From Rhodobacterales bacterium (lineage in GTDB: Bacteria > Pseudomonadota > Alphaproteobacteria > Rhodobacterales > Rhodobacteraceae): DNA of 61,628 nucleotides. The stretch lies in NCBI GenBank assembly GCA_017303485.1, contig JAFLCY010000003.1, forward strand, positions 30,516 through 92,143. Reading direction: 5' to 3'. Of the stretch, positions 2,636 to 40,487 are shown piece by piece. The first letter of the stretch is position 1; every line of letters starts with the position of its first letter. The notes beneath the pieces are model-generated. The model saw only the letters and a list, made by a program, of their open reading frames with translations, was not told where the DNA came from and ran no database searches. A program made the position numbers and the translations under genes.

Positions 2636-3394
2636 ATGAAGCCATACGAACGCCAGCCTCGGATCGAGGCGATCATCCAGCAGGAGGGGGAAGTCTCGGT
2701 CGAGACGCTGGCAGCACGTTTCGATGTGTCGTCCGAAACCATTCGCCGCGACCTTGGCCTTTTGGCCGAACGTGGGCGGGTGCAGAAGATTCACGGCGGC
2801 GCCCGGCGTCCGCGCCTGTTCCACGAACCGAGCTACGACGAGCGGGAAATCACCGCCGCCGAAGCCAAGGCCGCGATTGGCCGCCGACTGGCGGGTGCCG
2901 TCGAACCCGGCGAAACGGTCTTCGTCGATACCGGTTCGACCACGCTGGCCGCGGCCGAGACGCTGGCGGCAGTGCCCAGCCTGACCATCATCACCAATTC
3001 CTGTCGCCTTGCTGAACGTGTGGCCCGGGCCGGCACCGATGTGGCGATTCACCTTCTGGGTGGGCGCTACGGGGCCGACAATGCCCAGACCACCGGCGTT
3101 TCGGTGGTCGAGCAGCTGCAAGCCTTTCGCGCCGACCGCGCCATCCTGACGGTTGCGGCCCTCGACCCGGCCTTGGGCGCGATGGACGCAAGTCTGGACG
3201 AGGCGCAGATCGCGCGTGCGATGATCCGCAACGCGCGGACGCTGACGCTTTTGGCCGATGCCACCAAATTCGCGCGCCATGCGGCCTATGCCGTCTGCGC
3301 CACCGAAGACATCGACCTCGTCGTCAGCGACGGGAAACTCGACAAGGCGCATCGTGCGGCGCTGGCTGGCAAAGGGGTGGACGTATGGACCTGA
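2636..3394 (+). CDS. DeoR/GlpR-family transcriptional regulator
   Basis: This 252-residue protein has the DeoR layout: an N-terminal helix-turn-helix (residues 5-57, VETLAARFDVSSETIRRDL) followed by a sugar-phosphate-sensing domain of the ribose-5-phosphate isomerase fold (residues 76-235), with the conserved VDTGSTT near residue 98 and the DATKF segment near residue 210. The length is normal. The start has GGGGAGATTAA just upstream. It is the first gene of the plus-strand TRAP operon and divergent from the flavoproteins, so it most likely represses both until a phosphorylated intermediate of the imported substrate accumulates. Family assignment is firm; the ligand is unknown. Confidence 0.9.
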   Translation: MKPYERQPRIEAIIQQEGEVSVETLAARFDVSSETIRRDLGLLAERGRVQKIHGGARRPRLFHEPSYDEREITAAEAKAAIGRRLAGAVEPGETVFVDTGSTTLAAAETLAAVPSLTIITNSCRLAERVARAGTDVAIHLLGGRYGADNAQTTGVSVVEQLQAFRADRAILTVAALDPALGAMDASLDEAQIARAMIRNARTLTLLADATKFARHAAYAVCATEDIDLVVSDGKLDKAHRAALAGKGVDVWT

Positions 3395-3425
3395 CATGGG
3401 AAGCGGGCCGGGACACGGGGGCAAC

Positions 3426-3935
3426 ATGCCGCATCTGATCCGGGTCTATGTGCGGCTGGTCGACAGGATATCCGACTGGGTGGGCTATCTGGCCGCCTCG
3501 CTGATCTTCGTGATGGGCGCGACGCTGATCTTTGACGCCTTCACCCGCAACGTGATCAACATGCCGGTGCATTGGGCGATCGAGCTGACCCAGTTCACGC
3601 TGGCCGCCTATTACTTCATGGGCGGCCCGATCACGCTGAAGAACAACAGCCATGTGCGGATGGATCTCTGGTACGCCAACCTGTCGGAACGCGGCAAGGC
3701 GAAGATGGATCTCGTCACCGTCGGCTGCATGATCTTCTATCTTTGCGTCATGCTGGTCGGCAGCATTTCCAGCCTGCAATACGCCATCGCGACCGGAGAA
3801 CGCCGGTTCTCGATCTGGAACCCCTCGGTGATCCCGATCAAGGCGCTGCTGACCATCTGTCTCGTGCTGATGCTGCTCCAGTCCTTTGCGCTGGTCTTCA
3901 AGAACATCGCCACCCTGCGCGGAGAGCGTCTCTAG
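3426..3935 (+). CDS. TRAP transporter small permease (DctQ-type)
   Basis: This is a 169-residue integral membrane protein with four predicted helices (about residues 16-37, 54-70, 90-114, 137-157). It shows the DctQ pattern, including VDRISDWVGYLAASLIFVMG near the N-terminus and GGPITLKNNSHVRMDL after helix 2. The ATG at 3426 follows a purine-rich ACACGGGGGCAAC stretch; an in-frame ATG at 3396, directly after the deoR stop, would add ten residues. The gene overlaps nothing and is followed by the large permease after one base. It forms the small membrane subunit of a tripartite periplasmic uptake system. Confidence 0.9.
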   Translation: MPHLIRVYVRLVDRISDWVGYLAASLIFVMGATLIFDAFTRNVINMPVHWAIELTQFTLAAYYFMGGPITLKNNSHVRMDLWYANLSERGKAKMDLVTVGCMIFYLCVMLVGSISSLQYAIATGERRFSIWNPSVIPIKALLTICLVLMLLQSFALVFKNIATLRGERL

Positions 3936-3936
3936 A

Positions 3937-5274
3937 ATGTCCTATGAAATGATCGCTCTTCTGATGTTCGCCTCGATGGCGCTGCTGCTGGTCAGCGGGC
4001 AGCGGGTCTTTGCCGCCATCGGCTTTGTCGCGGCCGGCGCTGCGCTGCTCCTCTACGGCAACGGCGCAATCGAGCTGCCCTACAACCAGGTGTTCAAGCT
4101 CTTCAACTGGTACGCCATGCTGACGCTGCCCATGTTCATCTACATGGGTTACATCCTGGCCGAATCCGGGATCGCCGAAGACCTGTACAAGATGCTGCAT
4201 GTCTGGTTCGGCCGCATTCCCGGCGGGCTCGCCATTGGCACGATCCTTCTGATGGTGATCATCTCGGCGATGAACGGGTTGTCGGTCGCGGGCATGGCCA
4301 TCGGCGCCACCATCGCTTTGCCGGAAATGCTTCGTCGCGGTTACGACAAGGTGCTGATTTCGGGCGTTGTGCAGGGCGGCTCGTCGCTCGGCATCCTGAT
4401 CCCGCCCTCGGTCGTCCTCGTCCTCTACGGCATGATCGCCCGCCAGCCGGTCTCGAAGCTCTGGTTCGCCGGCCTTGTCCCCGGCCTTCTGATGGCCGCG
4501 ATGTTCATCCTCTACATCGTGATCCGCGCCCGGCTGAACCCCAGCCTCGCCCCTGCCGTCCCGGCGGAAGAGCTGAACATGCCGCTGCGCGAGAAACTGG
4601 CACTGGCCAAGGCCGGAATCATCCCCTTCGCGATCTTCTTCTTCATGACCGGGCTTTTCGTCTTCGGCTACACCAGCCTCGTCGAAAGCTCTGCCGTCGG
4701 CGCGACCTGCGCCACGCTGGCGGCGGCGCTGAAAGGCCGGTTCTCGTGGAGACTGATCCGCGAAACCTCGATGAAGACGCTCGCCGTTTCCTGCATGTTC
4801 ATGTGGCTGATCCTGGCCGCGCTGGCCTTCGGCGCGGTCTTCGACGGCCTCGGCGCCGTCCGCGCCATCGAGAACCTGTTCCTGAACCAGTGGCAGCTGT
4901 CGCCCTGGATGATCATCATCATGATGCAGCTCAGCTTCCTTCTGCTGGGTATGTTCCTGGACGACACCGCCATGCTGGTGATCGTGGCCCCGCTTTACAT
5001 CCCGCTGGTGGCAAGCCTTGATCTTGGTTTCGACAACCAGCTGATCTGGTACGGCATCCTCTACACGATCACCTGCCAGATCGCCTATATCACCCCGCCC
5101 TTCGGCTATAACCTGTTCCTCATGCGCTCCCTCGCGCCGGACGACATTTCGCTGGGCGACATCTACCGCTCGATCTGGCCCTTCGCCGCGATCATGGCGC
5201 TGACCATCATCCTTCTGATGCTGTTCCCGCAGATCGCGCTCTGGCTTCCCGAACATATGAACGTGAAAGGCTGA
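3937..5274 (+). CDS. TRAP transporter large permease (DctM-type)
   Basis: This is a 445-residue multi-spanning protein of the DctM family. Family landmarks are LPMFIYMGYILAESGI near residue 60, GGSSLGILIPPS near residue 150 and ITPPFGYNLFLMR near residue 385; the length is typical (about 425-450). The start ATG at 3937 is one base after the dctQ stop, so the two are coupled. It is the sodium-coupled channel half of the TRAP system and works with the DctQ-type and periplasmic subunits on each side. The substrate cannot be read from this subunit. Confidence 0.93.
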   Translation: MSYEMIALLMFASMALLLVSGQRVFAAIGFVAAGAALLLYGNGAIELPYNQVFKLFNWYAMLTLPMFIYMGYILAESGIAEDLYKMLHVWFGRIPGGLAIGTILLMVIISAMNGLSVAGMAIGATIALPEMLRRGYDKVLISGVVQGGSSLGILIPPSVVLVLYGMIARQPVSKLWFAGLVPGLLMAAMFILYIVIRARLNPSLAPAVPAEELNMPLREKLALAKAGIIPFAIFFFMTGLFVFGYTSLVESSAVGATCATLAAALKGRFSWRLIRETSMKTLAVSCMFMWLILAALAFGAVFDGLGAVRAIENLFLNQWQLSPWMIIIMMQLSFLLLGMFLDDTAMLVIVAPLYIPLVASLDLGFDNQLIWYGILYTITCQIAYITPPFGYNLFLMRSLAPDDISLGDIYRSIWPFAAIMALTIILLMLFPQIALWLPEHMNVKG

Positions 5275-5354
5275 CCAACCAAACCAAGAAAAAGACCGTC
5301 ACTGGGACAGACCACCCGGGCCCTCCGAAGCCCATAACAACAGGAGAGAACGAC

Positions 5355-6446
5355 ATGACTGATCCGAAGAAACCACAAAGCCCGTCCGAGAAAATTCTCG
5401 CGACCCGGCGGAACTTCCTTCGTCAGGCGGGGGTCGGGATGGGGGCCGTGGCCGGGGCCACGCTGGCTGCACCCTATGTGAACGCCCAGGGCGCGCCGAT
5501 CAAATGGCGGTTGCAAACCTATTCCGGTGCGCCCCTCGGCGCCCATGTGATCAAGCCGCAGATCGAGGCCTTCAACATCGCCGCCAATGGCGAGATGGAG
5601 ATCGAGCTTTACTATGCCGACCAGCTGGTCCCGACCGCCGACCTCTTCCGCGCGCTGCAGAACGGCACGCTGGACGCGGTGCAGTCGGACGAGGCGACAA
5701 TGGCCTCGCCGGTCGATATTTCGGTCTTTGGCGGCTACTTCCCCTTCGCCACCCGCTTCAGCCTCGATGTGCCGGCGCTGTTCAACTACTACGGGCTGAA
5801 GGAGATCTGGCAGGAAGCCTATGGCGAGGTCGAGGGCGTGACCTGGCTTTCCGCCGGGGCCTGGGACCCGCTGCATATCTTCACGGTCGACAAGCCGATC
5901 CGCAGCCTGGCCGACATGAACGGGTTGCGCGTCTTCGGTGTGCCGACGGCGGGCAAGTTCCTGTCGCGCTACGGGCTCGTGCCGGTGACGATCCCGTGGG
6001 ACAACGTCGAAGTCGCGATGCAGACCGGGGAACTGGACGGCGTGGCCTGGTGCGGCTTTACCGAAGCATATGAGGTCGGCTGGGCCGATGTCTGCAAATA
6101 CGCGCTGACCAACTCGGTCACCGGCGCCTGGTTCGGCAGCTATTTCGCCAATACCGCCAGCTGGGAAAAGGTCCCGCCGCATCTGCAGGAACTGTTCAAG
6201 ATCACCATCGACCAGTCGCACTACTACCGGAACGTCTGGTACTGGGGCGGCGAGGCCAAGCTGCGCGTCGAGGGCGAGAAGATGGAGCTGACCTCGCTGC
6301 CGGATGAAGAATGGGCGCAGGTCCTGTCCGATTCCAACGGCTTCTGGGACGAGGTTGCCGCTGCCTCGCCCCGGTCGGCCAAGGTGGTGGAGGCGTTCAA
6401 GAAATACGCCGACACGATGCAGAAGGCGGGCTACCCGTACCGCTAG
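5355..6446 (+). CDS. TRAP transporter substrate-binding protein (DctP/TakP-like), Tat-type signal
   Basis: This 363-residue protein begins with a signal resembling a Tat leader (ATRRNFLRQAGVGMGAV followed by AGATLAAPYVNAQG). The mature part is a DctP-fold periplasmic receptor; the segment IPWDNVEVAMQTGELDGVAWCG followed by TEAYEVGWADV resembles TakP-type receptors that bind keto acids or other carboxylates. AGGAGA precedes the ATG at a good distance. It follows the two permease genes after an 80-base gap, a common arrangement that allows higher expression of the receptor. Neighbouring flavoproteins suggest the ligand is an oxidisable hydroxyacid or polyol, but this is inference. Confidence 0.92.
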   Translation: MTDPKKPQSPSEKILATRRNFLRQAGVGMGAVAGATLAAPYVNAQGAPIKWRLQTYSGAPLGAHVIKPQIEAFNIAANGEMEIELYYADQLVPTADLFRALQNGTLDAVQSDEATMASPVDISVFGGYFPFATRFSLDVPALFNYYGLKEIWQEAYGEVEGVTWLSAGAWDPLHIFTVDKPIRSLADMNGLRVFGVPTAGKFLSRYGLVPVTIPWDNVEVAMQTGELDGVAWCGFTEAYEVGWADVCKYALTNSVTGAWFGSYFANTASWEKVPPHLQELFKITIDQSHYYRNVWYWGGEAKLRVEGEKMELTSLPDEEWAQVLSDSNGFWDEVAAASPRSAKVVEAFKKYADTMQKAGYPYR

Positions 6447-6527: not shown

Positions 6528-8045
6528 TCAGACCGTGGCTGCGCCGGCAGACCCCTCGGGGCTGGGATCGTCGCCTTCCTCGTCATAGGATTTGGGCATG
6601 ACCAGCGCCACGCCCGAGATCAGGCAGGCAACCGCCGCGACGATCCACCCGGTCATCTGCTCGTCCAGGAGAAGGATGCTCCAGATGATCCCCGCGCCGG
6701 TCGTGGCATAGCCGACCTGGCTGGTGAAGACCGCCCCCGTGGTGCGAATGGCGATGATCGACAGGACCATGCTGGTTGCGCTCATCGCCGCGATCAGAAG
6801 GAAGGCCCAGCCCAAGCCGTTAATCACCTCATGCACCGGAATGAACGACCCGCTGAGCAGGGCGACCGGGGTGGCGATCAGCGCCGAGGCCAGCACGATG
6901 CCGGTCGTCGTCCCGATCGCGCCGGTTTCCGTGGCGGGCAGGGACGCGATCATCAGCCCTTCGACCGCGTAGAAGATCGGCACCAGCAGGGCGACGAGAA
7001 TCCAGATCCAGCTTGCGCCGCCGATGGCATGTTCACCCGGCAGGATGACCAGCAACACGCAGACCAGCCCCAGGCTTAGCCCGATGAACCGCTTCATGCT
7101 GGGCGCCTCCAGTCCCAGAAGGGCCGCGAAGGCAAAGACGAGGAAGCTTTCGACCGCGAGGATGATCGAGATGATCATCGCGGGCAGGTGGCCGGCCACC
7201 CAGAACAGCGTCAACTGGGGCAGGGTGCCCCCGATCAGACCGATCAGCGCGTATCGCAACAGATCGGCGCGACTGCGGCCCGGGAATTGCCCGGTGATGA
7301 TCGACAAGAGCGTCATGATTGCCGCACTGAACCACAGCGTCCAGAACACGATGCCGAAGGGGCTGAGGCCCTCACGCATCACGATCCGCGAGATTGAGGG
7401 GATCAGGCCCCAGAGCGCGCCGATCAACAGGAGGAGGAACCCCCCCTTCAGCAGGCTGATTGTCCGGCGCAGGTTCTGTTCGCGGCGATAGACCTCGGAC
7501 GCCATGGTGACGAAGACCCGGCTGAGGTTGCCAAGCGCATCGTCACGGCGCGAGATGTCTTCCAGCCCCAGCCGGGCGGGATCGAACCCCTTGCCCTCGA
7601 CCATCCGCGAGGCGCCGGCCAGACGATCGACCTGCCGCAGATATTCCAGTTCCTGATCGCGAAGGCGCTTGCGTTCCAGCCCGGCATTCAGCCGCGCGCG
7701 CAAGAGGACGACGTCAAAGGACTTGGTCAGGAAATCCTCGGCGCCAAGCTCGATGGCCTTGACCACGTCGTCCATTTCTTCCAGCGAGGAAATCACGATG
7801 GCCGGAATATCCCGCAACGCGGAATTGGCCTTCATCGCCTTAAGCACCTCGAACCCGTCCATCCCCGGCATGACGATGTCGAGGACGACCATATCGATGC
7901 CGCCCCTGGCAAGCCGGGCAATGCCGGCCTCGCCGTCCGCCGCCTCTTCCACGTCGTGACCAAGGTTCTTGATCGCCAGCATCATCTTCATGCGTGTCTG
8001 CTTGTGGTCGTCGACCACCAGCACTCTGCCGCGGAACCCCGCCAT
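6528..8045 (-). CDS. receiver domain fused to an EamA/DMT-family transporter
   Basis: This 505-residue protein has an unusual architecture. Residues 5-120 are a CheY-like receiver: acidic pair D12-D13, phospho-acceptor D56 in VVLDIVMPGMDG, S86 and K108 (FLTKSF). Residues 120-198 are a helical linker with DDALGNLSRVFVTMASEV, similar to signalling helices found after receiver domains. Residues 200-480 hold about ten membrane helices with two EamA/DMT repeats (FLLLLIGALWGLIPSISR opens the first). The tail is acidic. GGGAGAA precedes the ATG at 8045. It is the last gene of a three-gene operon, 29 bases after the hybrid kinase. By inference, phosphorylation of D56 would gate or modulate transport, with no DNA-binding output. 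The transported substrate is unknown. Domain calls are firm; the mechanism is a hypothesis. Confidence 0.88.
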   Translation of the reverse strand: MAGFRGRVLVVDDHKQTRMKMMLAIKNLGHDVEEAADGEAGIARLARGGIDMVVLDIVMPGMDGFEVLKAMKANSALRDIPAIVISSLEEMDDVVKAIELGAEDFLTKSFDVVLLRARLNAGLERKRLRDQELEYLRQVDRLAGASRMVEGKGFDPARLGLEDISRRDDALGNLSRVFVTMASEVYRREQNLRRTISLLKGGFLLLLIGALWGLIPSISRIVMREGLSPFGIVFWTLWFSAAIMTLLSIITGQFPGRSRADLLRYALIGLIGGTLPQLTLFWVAGHLPAMIISIILAVESFLVFAFAALLGLEAPSMKRFIGLSLGLVCVLLVILPGEHAIGGASWIWILVALLVPIFYAVEGLMIASLPATETGAIGTTTGIVLASALIATPVALLSGSFIPVHEVINGLGWAFLLIAAMSATSMVLSIIAIRTTGAVFTSQVGYATTGAGIIWSILLLDEQMTGWIVAAVACLISGVALVMPKSYDEEGDDPSPEGSAGAATV

Positions 8046-8074
8046 CGCGTCTTCTCCCGTTCGGTGCCGCCTGT

Positions 8075-10840
8075 TCAGGCGGTCAGCAGGCCTTGCAGGC
8101 CCTTTTCTGCAATCCGGTATTCACGCACGACCGCATCCACCCTTGTCGCTTCTGCGACTTCTCCGGCACGGCCAAGCGCCTCGATGTCACGGCAGAGCGC
8201 CGCCAGCCCCAGCGCGCCAAAGTCTGTCGCGCTGCCTTTTAGCGTATGGGCCGCGCGGCGCATCGCATCGGCATCGCCTGCGGCCGCTGCTGCCCTGAGC
8301 CGGTCGACCAGATCCGGACCATCCTCAAGAAAGCTGCGCACCAGTTCCTTGAGCGCCTCGCGATCCCCGCCGATCACTTCCAGCAACTGCGCCAGTGCCT
8401 TGGGGTCCAGCTCTCCTGTGGGTTCGGGCATCGGCTCCTCCATTTTCCCGGGCTGGCCGGACAGGCAGGACCTGATGGCGCGCACCAGTGCCTCGACCCG
8501 GATCGGCTTGCTGACATAGTCGCTCATCCCCGCCGCGATGAACCGTTCCCGGTCGCCCTCCATCGCATTGGCGGTCACGGCGATGATCTTGGGGCGGGCG
8601 CCTTCGGGATAGGTCGCGATGATCCGGCGAGTGGCTTCGACCCCGTCCATCTCGGGCATCTCGATATCCATCAGGATCAGGTCATAGGCCTGCCGCTCCA
8701 GTGCCTGCAGCACCTCAAGCCCGTTGGCGGCAACATCGGCACGGTAGCCAAGGCGCTGCAGGATCATGCGGCCGAGCTTCTGGTTGGTGGGGTGGTCATC
8801 GGCCAGCAAAATGCGGGCGGGCAGTTCCACGGCAAGCTGATCGTCGATCTGCGGCTTCTCGATGCGGCGATAAGGCAGGACCCGCGTCGGTTCGCCCAGC
8901 GCGATGGTCATCACCGCGTTCAGCAGCGCCGAAGGCTTGATCGGCTTGGCCAGAACATCGGCAAAGCCCACGGCCTTCAGCGCCTCGGAATCGTGGTCGC
9001 CCGCATGGCCAAGCGAACTCAGCAGGATCAGCGGCATCGGTCGGGTCTCGGGCAGGGCGCGGATCGCACGGGCAAGGCCGATGCCGTCCATGTCGGGCAT
9101 GTGCATGTCGAGAATGGCGATATCGAACCGCTGTCCGTCCCGCAGCAGCGCCAGGGCTTCGGCAGGACCCGCAGCACTGGTCGGCGTGATAGACCAGATT
9201 TCGCATTGCCGGGCGAGGATCTTGCGGTTGGTGGCATTGTCATCGACGATCAGGACCCGCTTGCCCTCAAGATCCGGGCGGGCCTGGTTGATCCGTACCG
9301 CACGAATCGCTTCGGCCACCGGAGCGCTGAGGGTGAAGGTGAACTCTGACCCCTTGCCCGCTTCGCTGGTCACCCCGATCTCGCCCCCCATCAGCGTGAC
9401 AAGCCGCTGGCTGATCGCAAGTCCAAGACCAGTGCCGCCAAAGCGCCGGGTCGTCGAGGCATCGGCCTGGGTGAAGGACTGGAACAGCTTGCCGATCCGG
9501 TCGGCGGGAATACCGATGCCGGTATCGCGGACGGTCACACGCAAGGTGCAGGTCTCCGCGTCATCGCTCGCGCTGTCCTCACGCGAGACGGTCAGGACGA
9601 CTTCGCCCTTCTCGGTGAACTTGATCGCGTTGTTCAAGAGGTTCAGCAGGATTTGCCGCAGCCGGGTCGGGTCCGAGACGATGCGCTGCGGCGCGCCGGG
9701 TTCGATGACATAGGCCAGGTCAAGGCCCTTCTTCCCCGCCGCCATCGCCACGAGGTCCAGTGCCGCCTCGACGCATTCGCGCAGGTCGAAGGCGACTTTC
9801 TCAAGGTCCAGCTTCCCGGCCTCGACCTTCGAGAAATCGAGGATGTCGTTGAGGATGGTCAGCAGGCTTTCGGCGCTGTCGTTGATCGTGCGGGCATATT
9901 CGGCCTGTTCGGGCGGCAGGTCGGTATCCAGGAGCAGGTTGCTCATTCCGATGATCCCGTTCATCGGGGTACGGATTTCATGGCTCATGCTGGCCAGGAA
10001 CTGGCTTTTGGCGGTGGTGGCCTGCATCGCCGCGTCGCGCGCTTCGGCAAGGCTGGCGACCAGTTCCTCCTGTCGTTTGGCCAGCGCCTCGCGTTCCTTC
10101 AGGCTGTCGCAGAACAGTCCAAGCGTCCGGCCCATCGCGCCGATTTCGTCATGCCCGCCCTCGGGGATCGGCGCGGCTAGGTTGCCGCCGGTGATCGCCG
10201 TCATCGCCTCCATGACCTTGCGCAAGGGCTTGGTGATGGAGGCGATGACCAGAAGGGTCAGCAGCAACCCGCCAATTGCCGCCAGCACCGAGATCTGCGT
10301 CGCCCGCGCCACGGCCGAGGTGGCGGACCCCAGCGCCTCGTTACCTGTCGCGACAGCCTGTGCCTCCAGCCGCTCCACCAGAAGCGCAAGCTCGGCATTG
10401 ATCTTCTCGATGTGCAGATGCCCCTGCGCGATCAGCGAATTGCCCAGCACCCGCTGATCCTGGGTATAGGCATCGACGGCCTGAATGGCCTGTTCGCGCA
10501 GCGCGGCTACCTCCGTCCGGATCAGCGCCACGCTGTCCGGAGCAATCGGCTCCAGCTTTTCAAGGTCGGCCATCAGCGCGTCATGCGCCGCATTGGCGTT
10601 GACTTCCGAGCGCATGAGCAGGCTGACCGCAAGGTCCGAGAGCCAGAACTTGAACTCGCCAAACCGGGCCACCGCCGAGTTCGCAAGCCGCAGCTCGCCG
10701 ACCTTGTCCACCTCCTGCGCGATGGCATCGGCATTGCGGGACAGTCGCTGCGAAAGATAGGCGTTCGAGCCGACCAGCACGGCAAGCAACACGCCCGCAA
10801 GCAGGGCAAGGCGCGTGAAGATGGACAGCCGACCCAGCAT
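8075..10840 (-). CDS. hybrid sensor histidine kinase with HAMP, two receivers and HPt
   Basis: This 921-residue protein has a membrane helix at 9-27, a mostly helical periplasmic region at 28-185, a second helix at about 187-206, HAMP to about 260, HisKA with H287 in [12 protein letters not shown], and an ATPase domain with NAIKF, DTGIGIP and GGTGLGL motifs. Receiver 1 is at about 527-645 (D578) and receiver 2 at about 675-790 (D725). An HPt domain at about 815-910 carries H865 in AAHTLKGS. This is the BarA/ArcB-like multi-step phosphorelay layout. AGGAG precedes the ATG at 10840. It lies between the DUF3365 gene (37 bases upstream) and the receiver-transporter fusion (29 bases downstream), making those proteins its likely input and output. 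Confidence 0.93.
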
Positions 10841-10877
10841 GACCGCTACTCCTGTTCCGCAGCGGTCATCCCGGGGC

Positions 10878-11630
10878 CTAGCGGAACAGCGTGATGCTGA
10901 TCACACCACCAAGATCACCCAGGGCCCCGCCCTCTTTCGGATAGCCGGTCACGTCGATCTCACCCGCCGGTGCGCCGTGGCAGGCAAGGCAACCCTCGGT
11001 GTAATATTCAGGCACCATCACCCGAAAGGCCTCGCGGCCAGCCGAGTCCGAAAGGGCGGAATAGACCTCGCCCTTCTTCCAGTCGGGCGACAGCAGGCTT
11101 TCGGTGATGACCATGGTTTCCCAGGGGTCCGGGCGGGCCTTGCGGTTGCGCACCAGGTTTTCCGGGGCAGTGACCTTGATCTGGGCAAGATCGCCGACTT
11201 TCTCGGAAAAGGCCTCTGTCACCAGCCGGCCGAAGACCGCCGGCACGAACCCCTTGAACGCCACGCCCTCGCGGTTGATCGACCCGGCATTGGCATCCAT
11301 GACCTCGGTGATCGACTCCATCATCGCGGTGACAAGCTGCGCCTCGCGCGGGTCCATCCCTTCCGCAACGGGCGGGCCGCCGGTCTTGGTCACATAGGCC
11401 TCGGTCGCCCGGGCAAGCACGGCCGCACCCGACAGGCCCTTGTCGCCGACGGCAGGATCGTTGATCAGCACCTGTTCGGCCCCGATGACCGCACGGGCCG
11501 ATTGCAACAGGACCGCGAGACGGAGCGCGAGATCCAGTTCAGCCTCGTCTTGATCCTGCGCAAGACCGGCGGAAGTCGAACAAAAGCTGGAAGCCAGGGC
11601 CAGAGCGAAAACGAGCTGTCTCCAGGACAT
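10878..11630 (-). CDS. secreted Tll0287-like (DUF3365) protein with CxxCH motif
   Basis: This is about 250 residues. A cleavable signal peptide is visible ([25 protein letters not shown]). The C-terminal half matches the Tll0287-like/DUF3365 pattern, with [12 protein letters not shown] near residue 215, a c-type heme CxxCH site. The ATG at 11630 was chosen over an upstream frame extension because GGGGAGAG sits just before it. Related domains are found as sensory periplasmic domains of signal proteins; here the domain is a stand-alone secreted protein at the head of the operon with the hybrid kinase. By inference it is a redox or ligand-sensing partner of the kinase periplasmic region. Confidence 0.82.
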
Positions 11631-14487: not shown

Positions 14488-14546
14488 GTCTCGGAATCTC
14501 GACCGTGCCGGGCCAGTATCCGAGTTTGCGGGAACTGTATAGGGCC

Positions 14547-15326
14547 TTAGCCCGGAACCAGCCGCCGGACCGCCTCGGCATGCAATTTCGGCGGCAGGGC
14601 CAGCACACCCTCGGCCATCGCACCAGAGGTGTTGAACCGCAGGCTTGCGCCCTTCCGATCCGTGACGACCGCACCCGCCCGTTCGGCGATCAGGCTTCCG
14701 GCGGCGATATCCCATTCCCAGGCGTCGCGCAGGGTCAGCATGCCATCGAACCGGCCTTCTGCCGCAAGGCACAGCCGATAGGCCAGCGAGGCGCGAAAGC
14801 TTCGCTGAATGTCCGGCACCCCGCCCGGCCATTTCTCGGGCAGCATGTTGGCCTTGGTGGTGAGAATGTTCGCATCGTTCAGCACCTCACGCCGGCTGGC
14901 GGCTATTGGCTGGCCATCCTTCAGGGGCGGCGAGACATCCGAGGCCGTATATATGCGGTCCAACGCCGGCAGATACACAACGCCCGCGGTCACCCGGCCC
15001 TTGTGCGCCACCGCCAGCGAATGCGCGAAAGTCTCTTCCCCTGCGACAAAGGCCCGAGTCCCGTCGATGGGGTCGACGATGAAGACCGTATCCACAGCCA
15101 GCCTGTCGGTGCTGTCCGGCGTTTCCTCCGACAGCCAGCCATAGTCCGGCCGGGCCGCCAGAAGCCGCGCCTTCAGCATGTCGTTCACGGCAAGGTCGGC
15201 CTCGGTCACCGGCCCGTGTTCGCCGCCCTTGTCCCAGACCTTCGGGTCCCGACGCCAATAGCGCAGCGCGATCCGGCCCGCCTCACGCGCGGCCTCGGTC
15301 AGAAGCGCAAGGTCACGCGCCGGCAA
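14547..15326 (-). CDS. cysQ: inositol monophosphatase-family protein, CysQ-like 3'(2'),5'-bisphosphate nucleotidase
   Basis: This 259-residue protein has the FIG/IMPase metal site: E at SEETPDS, then VDPIDGTRAF (DPIDGT motif) and WEWDIAAGSLIAERAGA near residue 205. These residues bind Mg and the phosphate. The family includes CysQ, which removes the 3' phosphate of PAP formed in sulfate assimilation, and inositol monophosphatases; the length and motif context favour CysQ but do not settle it. The start appears to be a TTG at 15326: an in-frame stop lies two codons upstream, and no ATG lies near the expected N-terminus. It overlaps the end of the pmbA gene by 14 bases. Confidence 0.8.
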   Translation of the reverse strand: MPARDLALLTEAAREAGRIALRYWRRDPKVWDKGGEHGPVTEADLAVNDMLKARLLAARPDYGWLSEETPDSTDRLAVDTVFIVDPIDGTRAFVAGEETFAHSLAVAHKGRVTAGVVYLPALDRIYTASDVSPPLKDGQPIAASRREVLNDANILTTKANMLPEKWPGGVPDIQRSFRASLAYRLCLAAEGRFDGMLTLRDAWEWDIAAGSLIAERAGAVVTDRKGASLRFNTSGAMAEGVLALPPKLHAEAVRRLVPG

Positions 15327-16656
15327 GGGTCATCCCGTCGATCAGGATCGAGGGCACCCGCGTCGACAGATGCGCCCGCGCGTCGTTGGCCGGGACGATC
15401 CGCAAGAGCATGTCGCGCAGGTTGCCCGCGATGGTGCATTCGTGGACCGGATAGGCCAGTTCCCCGTTTTCCACCCAGAAGCCCGAGGCCCCGCGCGAAT
15501 AATCCCCCGTCGTCGGGTTGATGGTGGAGCCGATCATCGAGGTGACCAGCAGCCCGGTTCCCATCGCTTTCAGCAGGTCGTCCCGCGTCCGCGCGCCTTG
15601 CGTCAGGTCGATGTTCGTCGTCGAGGGCGACGGCGGCGCCGATACCCCGCGCGAGGCATTGCCGGTCGAGGTCATCCCCAGCTTCCGCCCGGTGGCAAGA
15701 TCCAGCACCCAGCCGGTCAGCACCCCATCCGCCACAAACGCCCGACGCTCGGTGGCCAGCCCCTCGCCATCGAAGGGCCGCGACGACCCGATCCGCGCCC
15801 GATGCGGGTCTTCCACGAGCGACAGCCCGGCAGGCAGCACCTGTTTGCCCAGAAGATCGCGCGCCCAGCTTGAGCCGCGGGCAATCGACGTTCCATTGAT
15901 CGCCGACAACAGATGCCCGACCAGAGAAGCCGCCACCCTTTCGTCATAGACCACCGCATAGGTCCCGGTCTTCGGCTTCACCGAGCCGACGCGCGCCAGC
16001 GTCCGCTCTGCCGCCAGCCGCCCGATCTCCTCGGCAGAAGGCATGTCGGCCGCGTAAATCCGCCCCTCCCCGGCATAGTCCCGCTGCATCGCGGTGCCTG
16101 CGCCGGTAAACGCCACTGCCGACAGTGACGTGGACGTCCGCCCATAGCCGCCGGAAAACCCGTTCGTCGCCGCCATGTGCAGTGCCCGCCGGCTGTAGGC
16201 GGCCGAAGCTTCGACCTGGGTGATCCCCTTCGCGTCCTGCGCCGCAGCTTCCACGGCCCGGGCACTGGCCTCCAGCACCGCCGCCCCCGGCTCCTCCGCC
16301 GGATCGGCCAGGTCCAGAGCCGCGAGATCCCAGCCCGAGGCCAGTTGCGACGCCTCCGCCAGACCTGCTGTCACATCCTCCGGTGCCTCGCGCGCCATCG
16401 CGACCGCCCTCTCGGCCAAGGCAGTGATGGTCGCCGAAGAGGTGTCCGAAGCCGAAACGCAGGCCTGTCGCTTGCCGACCAGCACCCTCAGGCCGATTTC
16501 CACCCCCTCGGATCGCTCGGCCTGTTCCAGCGCGCCCTTGCGGATTTCGATCGACAGCGCGGTGCCCGACACCGCCAGCGCATCGGCACTGTCGGCCCCG
16601 GCCTTGCGGGCGGCGTCCAGAAGGGAATGGCTCAGGTCGGCAAGGCTGGGGGTCAT
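15313..16656 (-). CDS. pmbA: TldD/PmbA-family metalloprotease-related protein
   Basis: This is about 447 residues with the PmbA/TldD pattern: an N-terminal LSIEIRKGALEQAERSEG-like strand region, GNASRGVSAPPSPSTTN near residue 330, and a C-terminal FWVENGELAYPVHECTIAGN segment. In E. coli TldD and PmbA (TldE) form a heteromeric zinc protease active on microcin precursors, CcdA and other unfolded peptides; PmbA is the non-catalytic partner. I take the ATG at 16656; an in-frame ATG at 16674 adds six residues. It overlaps the downstream cysQ-like gene by 14 bases, suggesting coupled translation. Confidence 0.88.
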   Translation of the reverse strand: MTPSLADLSHSLLDAARKAGADSADALAVSGTALSIEIRKGALEQAERSEGVEIGLRVLVGKRQACVSASDTSSATITALAERAVAMAREAPEDVTAGLAEASQLASGWDLAALDLADPAEEPGAAVLEASARAVEAAAQDAKGITQVEASAAYSRRALHMAATNGFSGGYGRTSTSLSAVAFTGAGTAMQRDYAGEGRIYAADMPSAEEIGRLAAERTLARVGSVKPKTGTYAVVYDERVAASLVGHLLSAINGTSIARGSSWARDLLGKQVLPAGLSLVEDPHRARIGSSRPFDGEGLATERRAFVADGVLTGWVLDLATGRKLGMTSTGNASRGVSAPPSPSTTNIDLTQGARTRDDLLKAMGTGLLVTSMIGSTINPTTGDYSRGASGFWVENGELAYPVHECTIAGNLRDMLLRIVPANDARAHLSTRVPSILIDGMTLAGA

Positions 16657-39791: not shown

Positions 39792-40487
39792 TCAATCTGG
39801 CTGAAGCATATACCCCTCGCCCCGCACCGTCTGCAGATAGCGCGGTGCCTTGGGGTCGTCCTCGATCTTGCGGCGAAGGCGCGTGATCTGCACATCGACG
39901 GCCCGCTCCTGCGCGGCGTCGACGCTGCCCTGGTCGGCCACCAGCCGTTCCCGGCTGATCGCCACCCCCGGCGCCGCGGCGAAGATGCGCATCAGGGTCG
40001 CCTCGGTCGCCGTCAGCCGGACCGGAGCCTCGCCACGCCACATCTCGCCCCGATCGAGGTCATAGCGGACGTCGCCCAGATGCAGGAACTGCCGCACCGG
40101 CTCGGCCGCCTTGACCTGTGGCACCCGGCGCAGGATTGCGTTGATCCTGAGCAGAAGCTCCTTCGGCTCGAAGGGCTTGACCAGATAGTCATCCGCTCCG
40201 GCCTCCAGACCCTCGATCCGGTTCGCCGTTTCGCCCCGGGCGGTGAGCAGGAGGATCGGCGTCGGCATCCGCTTGCGCAGGTCACGCGTCAGGGTCACGC
40301 CGTCCTCGCCCGGCATCATCACGTCCATGACGATCAGGTCGAACTCCAGCCCGCCCAGAATGCGCCGGGCCTGCGCCGCATCGCGCGCGACCGAGACGAG
40401 AAAGCCGCTCCGCATCAGGAACTTCTGCAACAGGCCGCGGATACGCTCGTCATCGTCGACGATCAGGAGATGGGCGTCCGGAACCAT
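39792..40487 (-). CDS. petR: OmpR-family response regulator, PetR-like
   Basis: This 231-residue protein has a receiver domain (residues 5-115; D11, D12, phospho-site D55 in VMDVMMPGEDG, K in LVKPFEP) and an OmpR-type winged helix (about 130-228). The fusion to a MarR gene upstream by a one-base overlap is the petP-petR arrangement known from Rhodobacter capsulatus, where PetR is needed for cytochrome bc1 expression. The bc1 genes themselves are not in this window. No cognate kinase is adjacent. Confidence 0.85.
   Translation of the reverse strand: MVPDAHLLIVDDDERIRGLLQKFLMRSGFLVSVARDAAQARRILGGLEFDLIVMDVMMPGEDGVTLTRDLRKRMPTPILLLTARGETANRIEGLEAGADDYLVKPFEPKELLLRINAILRRVPQVKAAEPVRQFLHLGDVRYDLDRGEMWRGEAPVRLTATEATLMRIFAAAPGVAISRERLVADQGSVDAAQERAVDVQITRLRRKIEDDPKAPRYLQTVRGEGYMLQPD

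Follow-up and report, generated by a model that had tools for sequence, protein, structure and literature searches.

Can a phosphorelay end in a membrane transporter? This question is raised by three genes within a 61,628-nt stretch of contig JAFLCY010000003.1 of a Rhodobacterales bacterium (GCA_017303485.1; hereafter the window). All three are encoded on the minus strand, as are the features within them described below, and are separated by gaps of 37 and 29 nt, in agreement with the initial annotation, which had placed them in one operon. In this order they code for a secreted, stand-alone Tll0287-like / sCache_heme (DUF3365) protein (10878..11630; 250 aa), a hybrid histidine kinase identified by its Pfam domains (8075..10840; 921 aa) and a protein that, by Pfam and a structure model, joins a receiver through a HAMP-like linker to an EamA transporter (REC-EamA; 6528..8045; 505 aa). 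To our knowledge, response-regulator outputs either have enzymatic activity or bind to DNA, RNA or protein. A literature search, judged from titles and the openings of abstracts, found no described receiver-EamA fusion, and the available part of an article on archaeal systems (PMC5847659) makes no mention of a transporter or of EamA. The locus looks like a standard phosphorelay with a new type of output.

The receiver domain (residues 8-119; 7689..8024; PF00072, E 1.3e-25) holds all the residues that had been named for it, D12, D13, D56, S86 and K108, and with these the acidic pair, phospho-acceptor aspartate, Thr/Ser and Lys of a response regulator. By its position in alignments, Asp56 (7878..7880) is the predicted phosphorylation site. 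D12, D13 and D56 are kept in 17/17 and S86 and K108 in 18/18 aligned members of the REC-EamA family. PleD tops the sequence search, and the receiver reaches 36% identity with PleD structures; in contrast to PleD and similar effector-domain response regulators, the output here is a multi-spanning carrier and not a GGDEF domain.

The linker (residues 125-199; 7449..7673), described before as a signalling helix, is better called HAMP-like, based on HAMP hits in the linkers of relatives and on the helix layout of the model. HAMP was the sole or top Pfam match in five of seven REC-EamA linkers tested (18 were at hand) and in the related linker of genome G365, with E values from 0.07 to 1.1e-6 at a limit of 10, and one of these eight linkers exceeded the cut-off (29.3 versus 25). 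The linkers of the window and of G361 gave no Pfam HAMP match up to E 10, and comparison of the REC-EamA linker with the HAMP domains of the kinases by hhalign was weak (E 0.012 but probability 3.6). In the structure model two helices (112-150 and 170-224) are joined by an extended connector, as in HAMP domains, and the second helix runs continuously into TM1. This is a monomer model, and a four-helix bundle is outside what a monomer shows.

Residues 200-486 (6588..7448) form, by fold, the ten-helix DMT/EamA transporter domain that had been claimed. The EamA profile matches residues 200-334 (E 1.9e-15; 57.8 bits versus a cut-off of 28.2). The second repeat stays below this cut-off (22.8 bits) but is nonetheless present in the model, in which a clean two-repeat, ten-TM DMT fold extends across residues 196-486. 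This fold is shared with LicB, the triose-phosphate translocator, SLC35B1 and 5i20, which we take to be YddG; the window domain differs from these transporters in being preceded by a receiver and a HAMP-like domain. The proposed direction, export, was a guess and was not borne out, the nearest fold, LicB, being named a choline importer.

A stop or frameshift between the receiver and transporter parts was looked for and is absent; both parts lie in a single reading frame. Since twelve other proteins in the first alignment, 33-83% identical to the window protein, also run continuously through both halves, REC-EamA is not an assembly fusion. For the gene pair of the window and G016, a dN/dS of 0.117 was calculated for the whole gene, with 0.088 for the receiver, 0.055 for the linker and 0.126 for the transporter. 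Purifying selection acts on each of the three parts. The continuous frame in relatives and the selection on each part rule out a fusion or frameshift artefact. The sole other receiver within the window found by tblastn belongs to an OmpR-type regulator (39795-40487).

The kinase consists of a periplasmic helical sensor between two transmembrane segments (hydrophobic at 1-30 and 176-194), followed by HAMP, HisKA (H287), HATPase_c, two receivers (D578 and D725) and an HPt domain (H865). Pfam domains and these four residues bear out the earlier assignment as a two-receiver hybrid kinase ending in HPt. His865, the predicted phospho-acceptor of the HPt domain (PF01627, E 7.7e-15), lies in HTLKGS starting at 865 (codon 8246..8248). 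Counterparts of H287, D578 and D725 were found in 18/18 aligned kinases, three of which belong to loci with other outputs. Pfam assigned no family to the sensor domain of the window kinase at 1e-3.

The proposed periplasmic sensor partner of the kinase was predicted correctly as a secreted CxxCH protein of the Tll0287 type. It matches PF11845 (E 1.2e-17), has the Cache fold of 5b82 and carries the c-heme motif CLACH (residues 214-218; 10977..10991), whose CxxCH pattern is invariant in 5/5 aligned proteins. Searching the PDB by sequence gave no match at E <= 1 for the whole protein and one row, at E 2.1, for its C-terminal piece. Besides C214 and C217 it contains C17 only, within the hydrophobic N-terminus, and the four relatives have, as read, the CxxCH cysteines alone. 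The axial Cys is absent from all five, and the window protein does not have the additional cysteine that marks Cys/His-ligated, redox-type Tll0287 proteins. The characterised NO-binding sCache_heme member likewise has no axial Cys (PMC12889525). We therefore demote the suggested redox signal to one option among several, and the general tie of the system to heme was not borne out. In the two classes of that study stand-alone proteins are redox proteins and fused ones NO sensors; the window protein falls between them, being stand-alone, yet paired with a kinase by gene order and devoid of the axial Cys. Close relatives occur in 5/195 genomes, in four of them directly before a hybrid kinase gene. 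In the fifth, G608, the contig stops within the following gene, the visible N-terminus of which is, among five kinases compared, nearest to that of the window kinase (28%, E 1.5e-7).

Among the closest known systems is TorT/TorS/TorR, the TMAO phosphorelay, which likewise combines a periplasmic accessory protein, a helical periplasmic sensor and a hybrid kinase with an HPt-type relay. TorS has one receiver and the window kinase two. Of the NCBIfam models, TorS (TIGR02956) matches the window kinase best, with 518.8 bits, which is under the equivalog cut-off of 676.5. A TorS_sensor_domain is present in the related kinases of G062, G280, G448 and G555, whereas the window kinase has none at 1e-3. 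The accessory protein is a heme-Cache protein and not TorT, and in place of the DNA-binding TorR the output is REC-HAMP-EamA. TorC is a c-type cytochrome. TorS is controlled by periplasmic TorT and TorC (PMC8534201).

The initial annotation had proposed a search for the receiver-EamA architecture in other genomes, and the fusion does recur, with differing sensors. Full-length or nearly full-length proteins were found in 2/32 genomes of the genus (the window genome and G016, 84% identical) and in 8/394 of the family. In the family search 20/394 genomes matched at 1e-40, and 12 were dropped as receiver only, transporter only or mainly, or pieces on separate contigs. Alignment searches at 1e-80 gave 9/292 genomes of the order and 1/385 of the class, the latter being the window's own; at 1e-60, 3/349 genomes of the phylum matched, all already among the known loci. 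The fusion is also present in 3/247 genomes of the Mesorhizobium-type family (1e-80; the query genome is counted), in three named Mesorhizobium genomes and in three Mesorhizobium plasmids (annotated 'response regulator'; two of the three read, one by annotation alone). One search of genome contigs returned four full-length relatives and one receiver-only match, and phages gave no match at E <= 1e-20. These genome sets overlap and include the window; being samples searched with strict cut-offs, they may miss independent or distant fusions.

We read 18 of these loci: the window, G016, G310, G062, G265, G361, G280, G274, G299, G555, G448, L052, L053, L054, two plasmids, G1069 and G1050. A hybrid kinase belongs to the cassette at 18/18 (that of G1050 runs off the contig) and an HPt at 17/18. 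In the window, G016 and G448 the HPt is part of the kinase; at the other 14 it is encoded separately, by a gene or open frame of its own (G1050's by eye). Mostly, the HPt alone separates kinase from fusion; in addition, G274 has a gene for a binding protein there, G448 one for a CheY-like receiver and G299 an insertion-like gene. No HPt was found at G299 (L062:4347-10490), where the locus is disrupted and both kinase and REC-EamA are shortened. The insertion-like gene at G299 codes for 388 aa and apparently occurs again at 14514-15680. REC-EamA is present three times at G274 (L061:8498-17181), intact in two tandem genes and broken in a third copy after the HPt gene.

The gene upstream of the kinase varies. 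Tll0287 precedes it in the window and G016, DctP-type binding proteins (mutually 75-82% identical) at G062, G265 and G555, a binding-protein-like group (66-77% identical, no Pfam family at 1e-3) at G310, G274, G299 and G1069, and SBP_bac_3 at G280 and G448; the SBP_bac_3 gene of G361 is convergent and downstream. Directly upstream in the Mesorhizobium loci no binding-protein gene was noticed, and the two kinases scanned there (L052, L053) have four GAF domains. Tll0287 was found together with REC-EamA in only two genomes, the window's and G016. We reject the view of the three genes as a conserved unit: other sensors fill the Tll0287 place elsewhere, and two genomes pair Tll0287 and kinase with a receiver-linked cyclase.

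Both ends of the relay have been exchanged. G448 shares with G280 its binding protein (72%) and, less closely, the sensor domain (49%), while in the kinase core it shows 59% identity to the window and 45% to G280. Of the REC-EamA proteins, the window's is narrowly the closest to that of G448 (44%, versus 43% for G016, 41% for G1069 and 37% for G280). Judged from these identities, G448 is an input swap. By similar comparisons, G094 and G086 are output swaps. Relative to the window, G094 (L065:8944-14397) has 55% identity in Tll0287, 47% in the sensor domain and 61% in the kinase core; its receiver gene is divergent from the kinase gene and fused to a class III cyclase rather than to EamA. G086 (L088:7277-12655) encodes Tll0287, a more distant hybrid kinase (sensor domain 35% identical to the window's), a single receiver, and finally a protein that combines HisKA-like, REC and class III cyclase domains. 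These systems share with the window the kind of input (Tll0287 and kinase), but their output is an enzyme, and the linker of G094 is short, by eye without a HAMP-like stretch. Such exchanges from one locus to another, of inputs as well as outputs, are in keeping with a modular relay. At G365 (L063:1729-6829), SBP_bac_3 and a hybrid kinase with HPt are followed by a transporter-less REC-HAMP-like protein and then a MinD/ParA-like ATPase, possibly a second kind of output swap.

Kinase and transporter have diversified together. In a tree of EamA domains, those of 18 REC-EamA proteins form one clade (100/100) apart from 12 EamA-only relatives and five outgroups. The 18 come from 16 loci, with L054 and the second plasmid omitted as near-copies. 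Some of the outgroups sit on long branches, and the deepest splits inside the clade are of uncertain order. Distances between kinase cores correlate with those between EamA domains (r 0.91) over 14 loci, a set that excludes G274, G299, L054 and the second plasmid, and with r 0.87 over the 11 loci left without near-copies (P 0.0002, the minimum attainable with 5000 permutations). For kinase versus receiver the values are 0.84 and 0.78. This correlation may in part reflect shared descent of neighbouring genes; linkage alone would give some correlation. Since G1069 groups with G310 and G1050 with G280 in both trees, both coming from the Mesorhizobium-type family search, the tree positions suggest transfer of whole cassettes. 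On plasmid pML2037 (L079:11586-24263) a Mesorhizobium HPt-REC-EamA cassette lies no more than about ten genes away from those for plasmid replication and conjugal transfer, a placement in keeping with spread by transfer. With a hybrid kinase at all 18 loci, HPt at all but one, invariant receiver residues and this co-diversification, the phosphorelay appears to be dedicated to the receiver-EamA protein, as had been assumed.

We consider it somewhat probable that the locus encodes a multistep phosphorelay with a transporter, and not a transcription factor, as its output, and that transport is controlled directly. What is observed is the order of the genes, their domains and folds, the intact phospho-residues, the recurrence and the co-inheritance; the phosphotransfer path, HAMP coupling, the effect on transport and the signal are inferred. 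The periplasmic c-heme Cache protein, responding to NO, another heme ligand or redox state, would act on the helical sensor domain of the kinase, much as TorT or TorC acts on TorS. The phosphoryl group would pass from H287 to D578/D725, to H865 and to D56 of the transporter-fused receiver. Phosphorylation would alter the dimer state of the receiver, and the HAMP-like helices may relay this change to TM1, so that the DMT-family carrier is opened, closed or biased. The broader claim, that REC-EamA proteins are a response-regulator family with transport as output, in which phosphorylation of D56-type residues gates a DMT carrier through a HAMP working 'backwards' from cytoplasm to membrane, seems to us evenly poised between right and wrong. 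Such a family would give fast, non-transcriptional answers to exchangeable sensors (periplasmic c-heme NO/redox protein, TRAP-type or amino-acid-type binding proteins, GAF domains). If this is true, a receiver-fused carrier is a further type of response-regulator output, a direct, reversible and genetically tractable switch on a membrane transporter without a change in gene expression, and a natural test case for whether a HAMP domain is able to signal in the direction of the membrane. The weak HAMP profile evidence, the differing downstream neighbours, possible other outputs at G280 and G448 and the HPt not found at G299 speak against transport as output, and a membrane-bound receiver could work without it.

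HAMP domains usually signal inwards, from membrane to cytoplasm, and fusions of transporters to kinases are known, such as CbrA (SLC5-kinase) and Amt-kinase. As in these, a transporter fold is covalently joined to two-component parts in the window; there, however, it sits on a kinase at the input side, and here on a receiver at the output end. Direction and precedent would suit an EamA part that serves as receptor, in which binding or movement of solute alters phosphate gain or loss of the receiver through HAMP and feeds back on the relay, with the CheY-like receiver of G448 and the same-strand LuxR-type gene of G280 as possible other outputs. We regard this as unlikely, as no second output gene was noticed between kinase and REC-EamA in the other cassettes (not every neighbour was scanned), and the EamA half keeps nearly invariant positions in common with EamA-only relatives. 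The EamA half is also the most divergent part of the protein (mean pairwise identity among 10 representatives 0.35, versus 0.43 for the linker and 0.54 for REC), as might be expected if it were a mere membrane anchor or phosphate sink that holds the receiver near the kinase, with transport absent or incidental. This we find improbable: a ten-helix carrier fold is costly as an anchor, and its low dN/dS and clean two-repeat fold argue against it.

A further doubt concerns the input only and is compatible with each of these readings. The heme-Cache protein may be an electron carrier that shares the operon by chance, the kinase sensing something else. Redox roles have been proposed for stand-alone sCache_heme proteins, and a P. 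putida protein stripped of its axial Cys did not become a tight NO binder (PMC12889525); moreover, other REC-EamA loci manage without a heme-Cache protein. Against this stand the position of its gene directly before a hybrid kinase gene in four of five genomes, the similarity of the G094 and G086 sensor domains to that of the window and the missing axial Cys, and we judge chance association to be rather unlikely. Direct control of transport by the relay remains our preferred reading.

Genes following REC-EamA were compared at 12 loci, one of which ends at the contig end, and no shared downstream partner naming a substrate was seen. In the other 11 the neighbours are mostly unlike, at -11 to 811 nt and on either strand; on a Mesorhizobium plasmid the neighbour is a 2-hydroxyacid dehydrogenase. 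The nearest likeness is between two LuxR-type HTH proteins. That of G280 (L060:431-2278; GerE, over the Pfam cut-off) is on the same strand and starts 11 nt inside the REC-EamA end, and that of G1050 (L096:6177-7988), below the Pfam cut-off, is on the opposite strand and convergent. Because of these neighbours and the CheY-like receiver of G448, the gene of which precedes a convergent REC-EamA gene, a second, transcriptional branch is possible in some loci. In the window, TRAP genes (DctQ, DctM, DctP; 3258-6446) converge on the REC-EamA gene and end 81 nt from its stop. Their membership in the system was not supported: the next gene in G016 (L051), 482 nt on, resembles rpsD by eye. The window DctP shares only about 24% identity with the DctP proteins that occupy the sensor slot at G062, G265 and G555. 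In two genomes, EamA-only relatives of the transporter half overlap or abut a gene that by eye resembles a YmdB-type phosphodiesterase (L067:7495-9173 and L068:7330-9032), a possible lead on the role of this EamA family.
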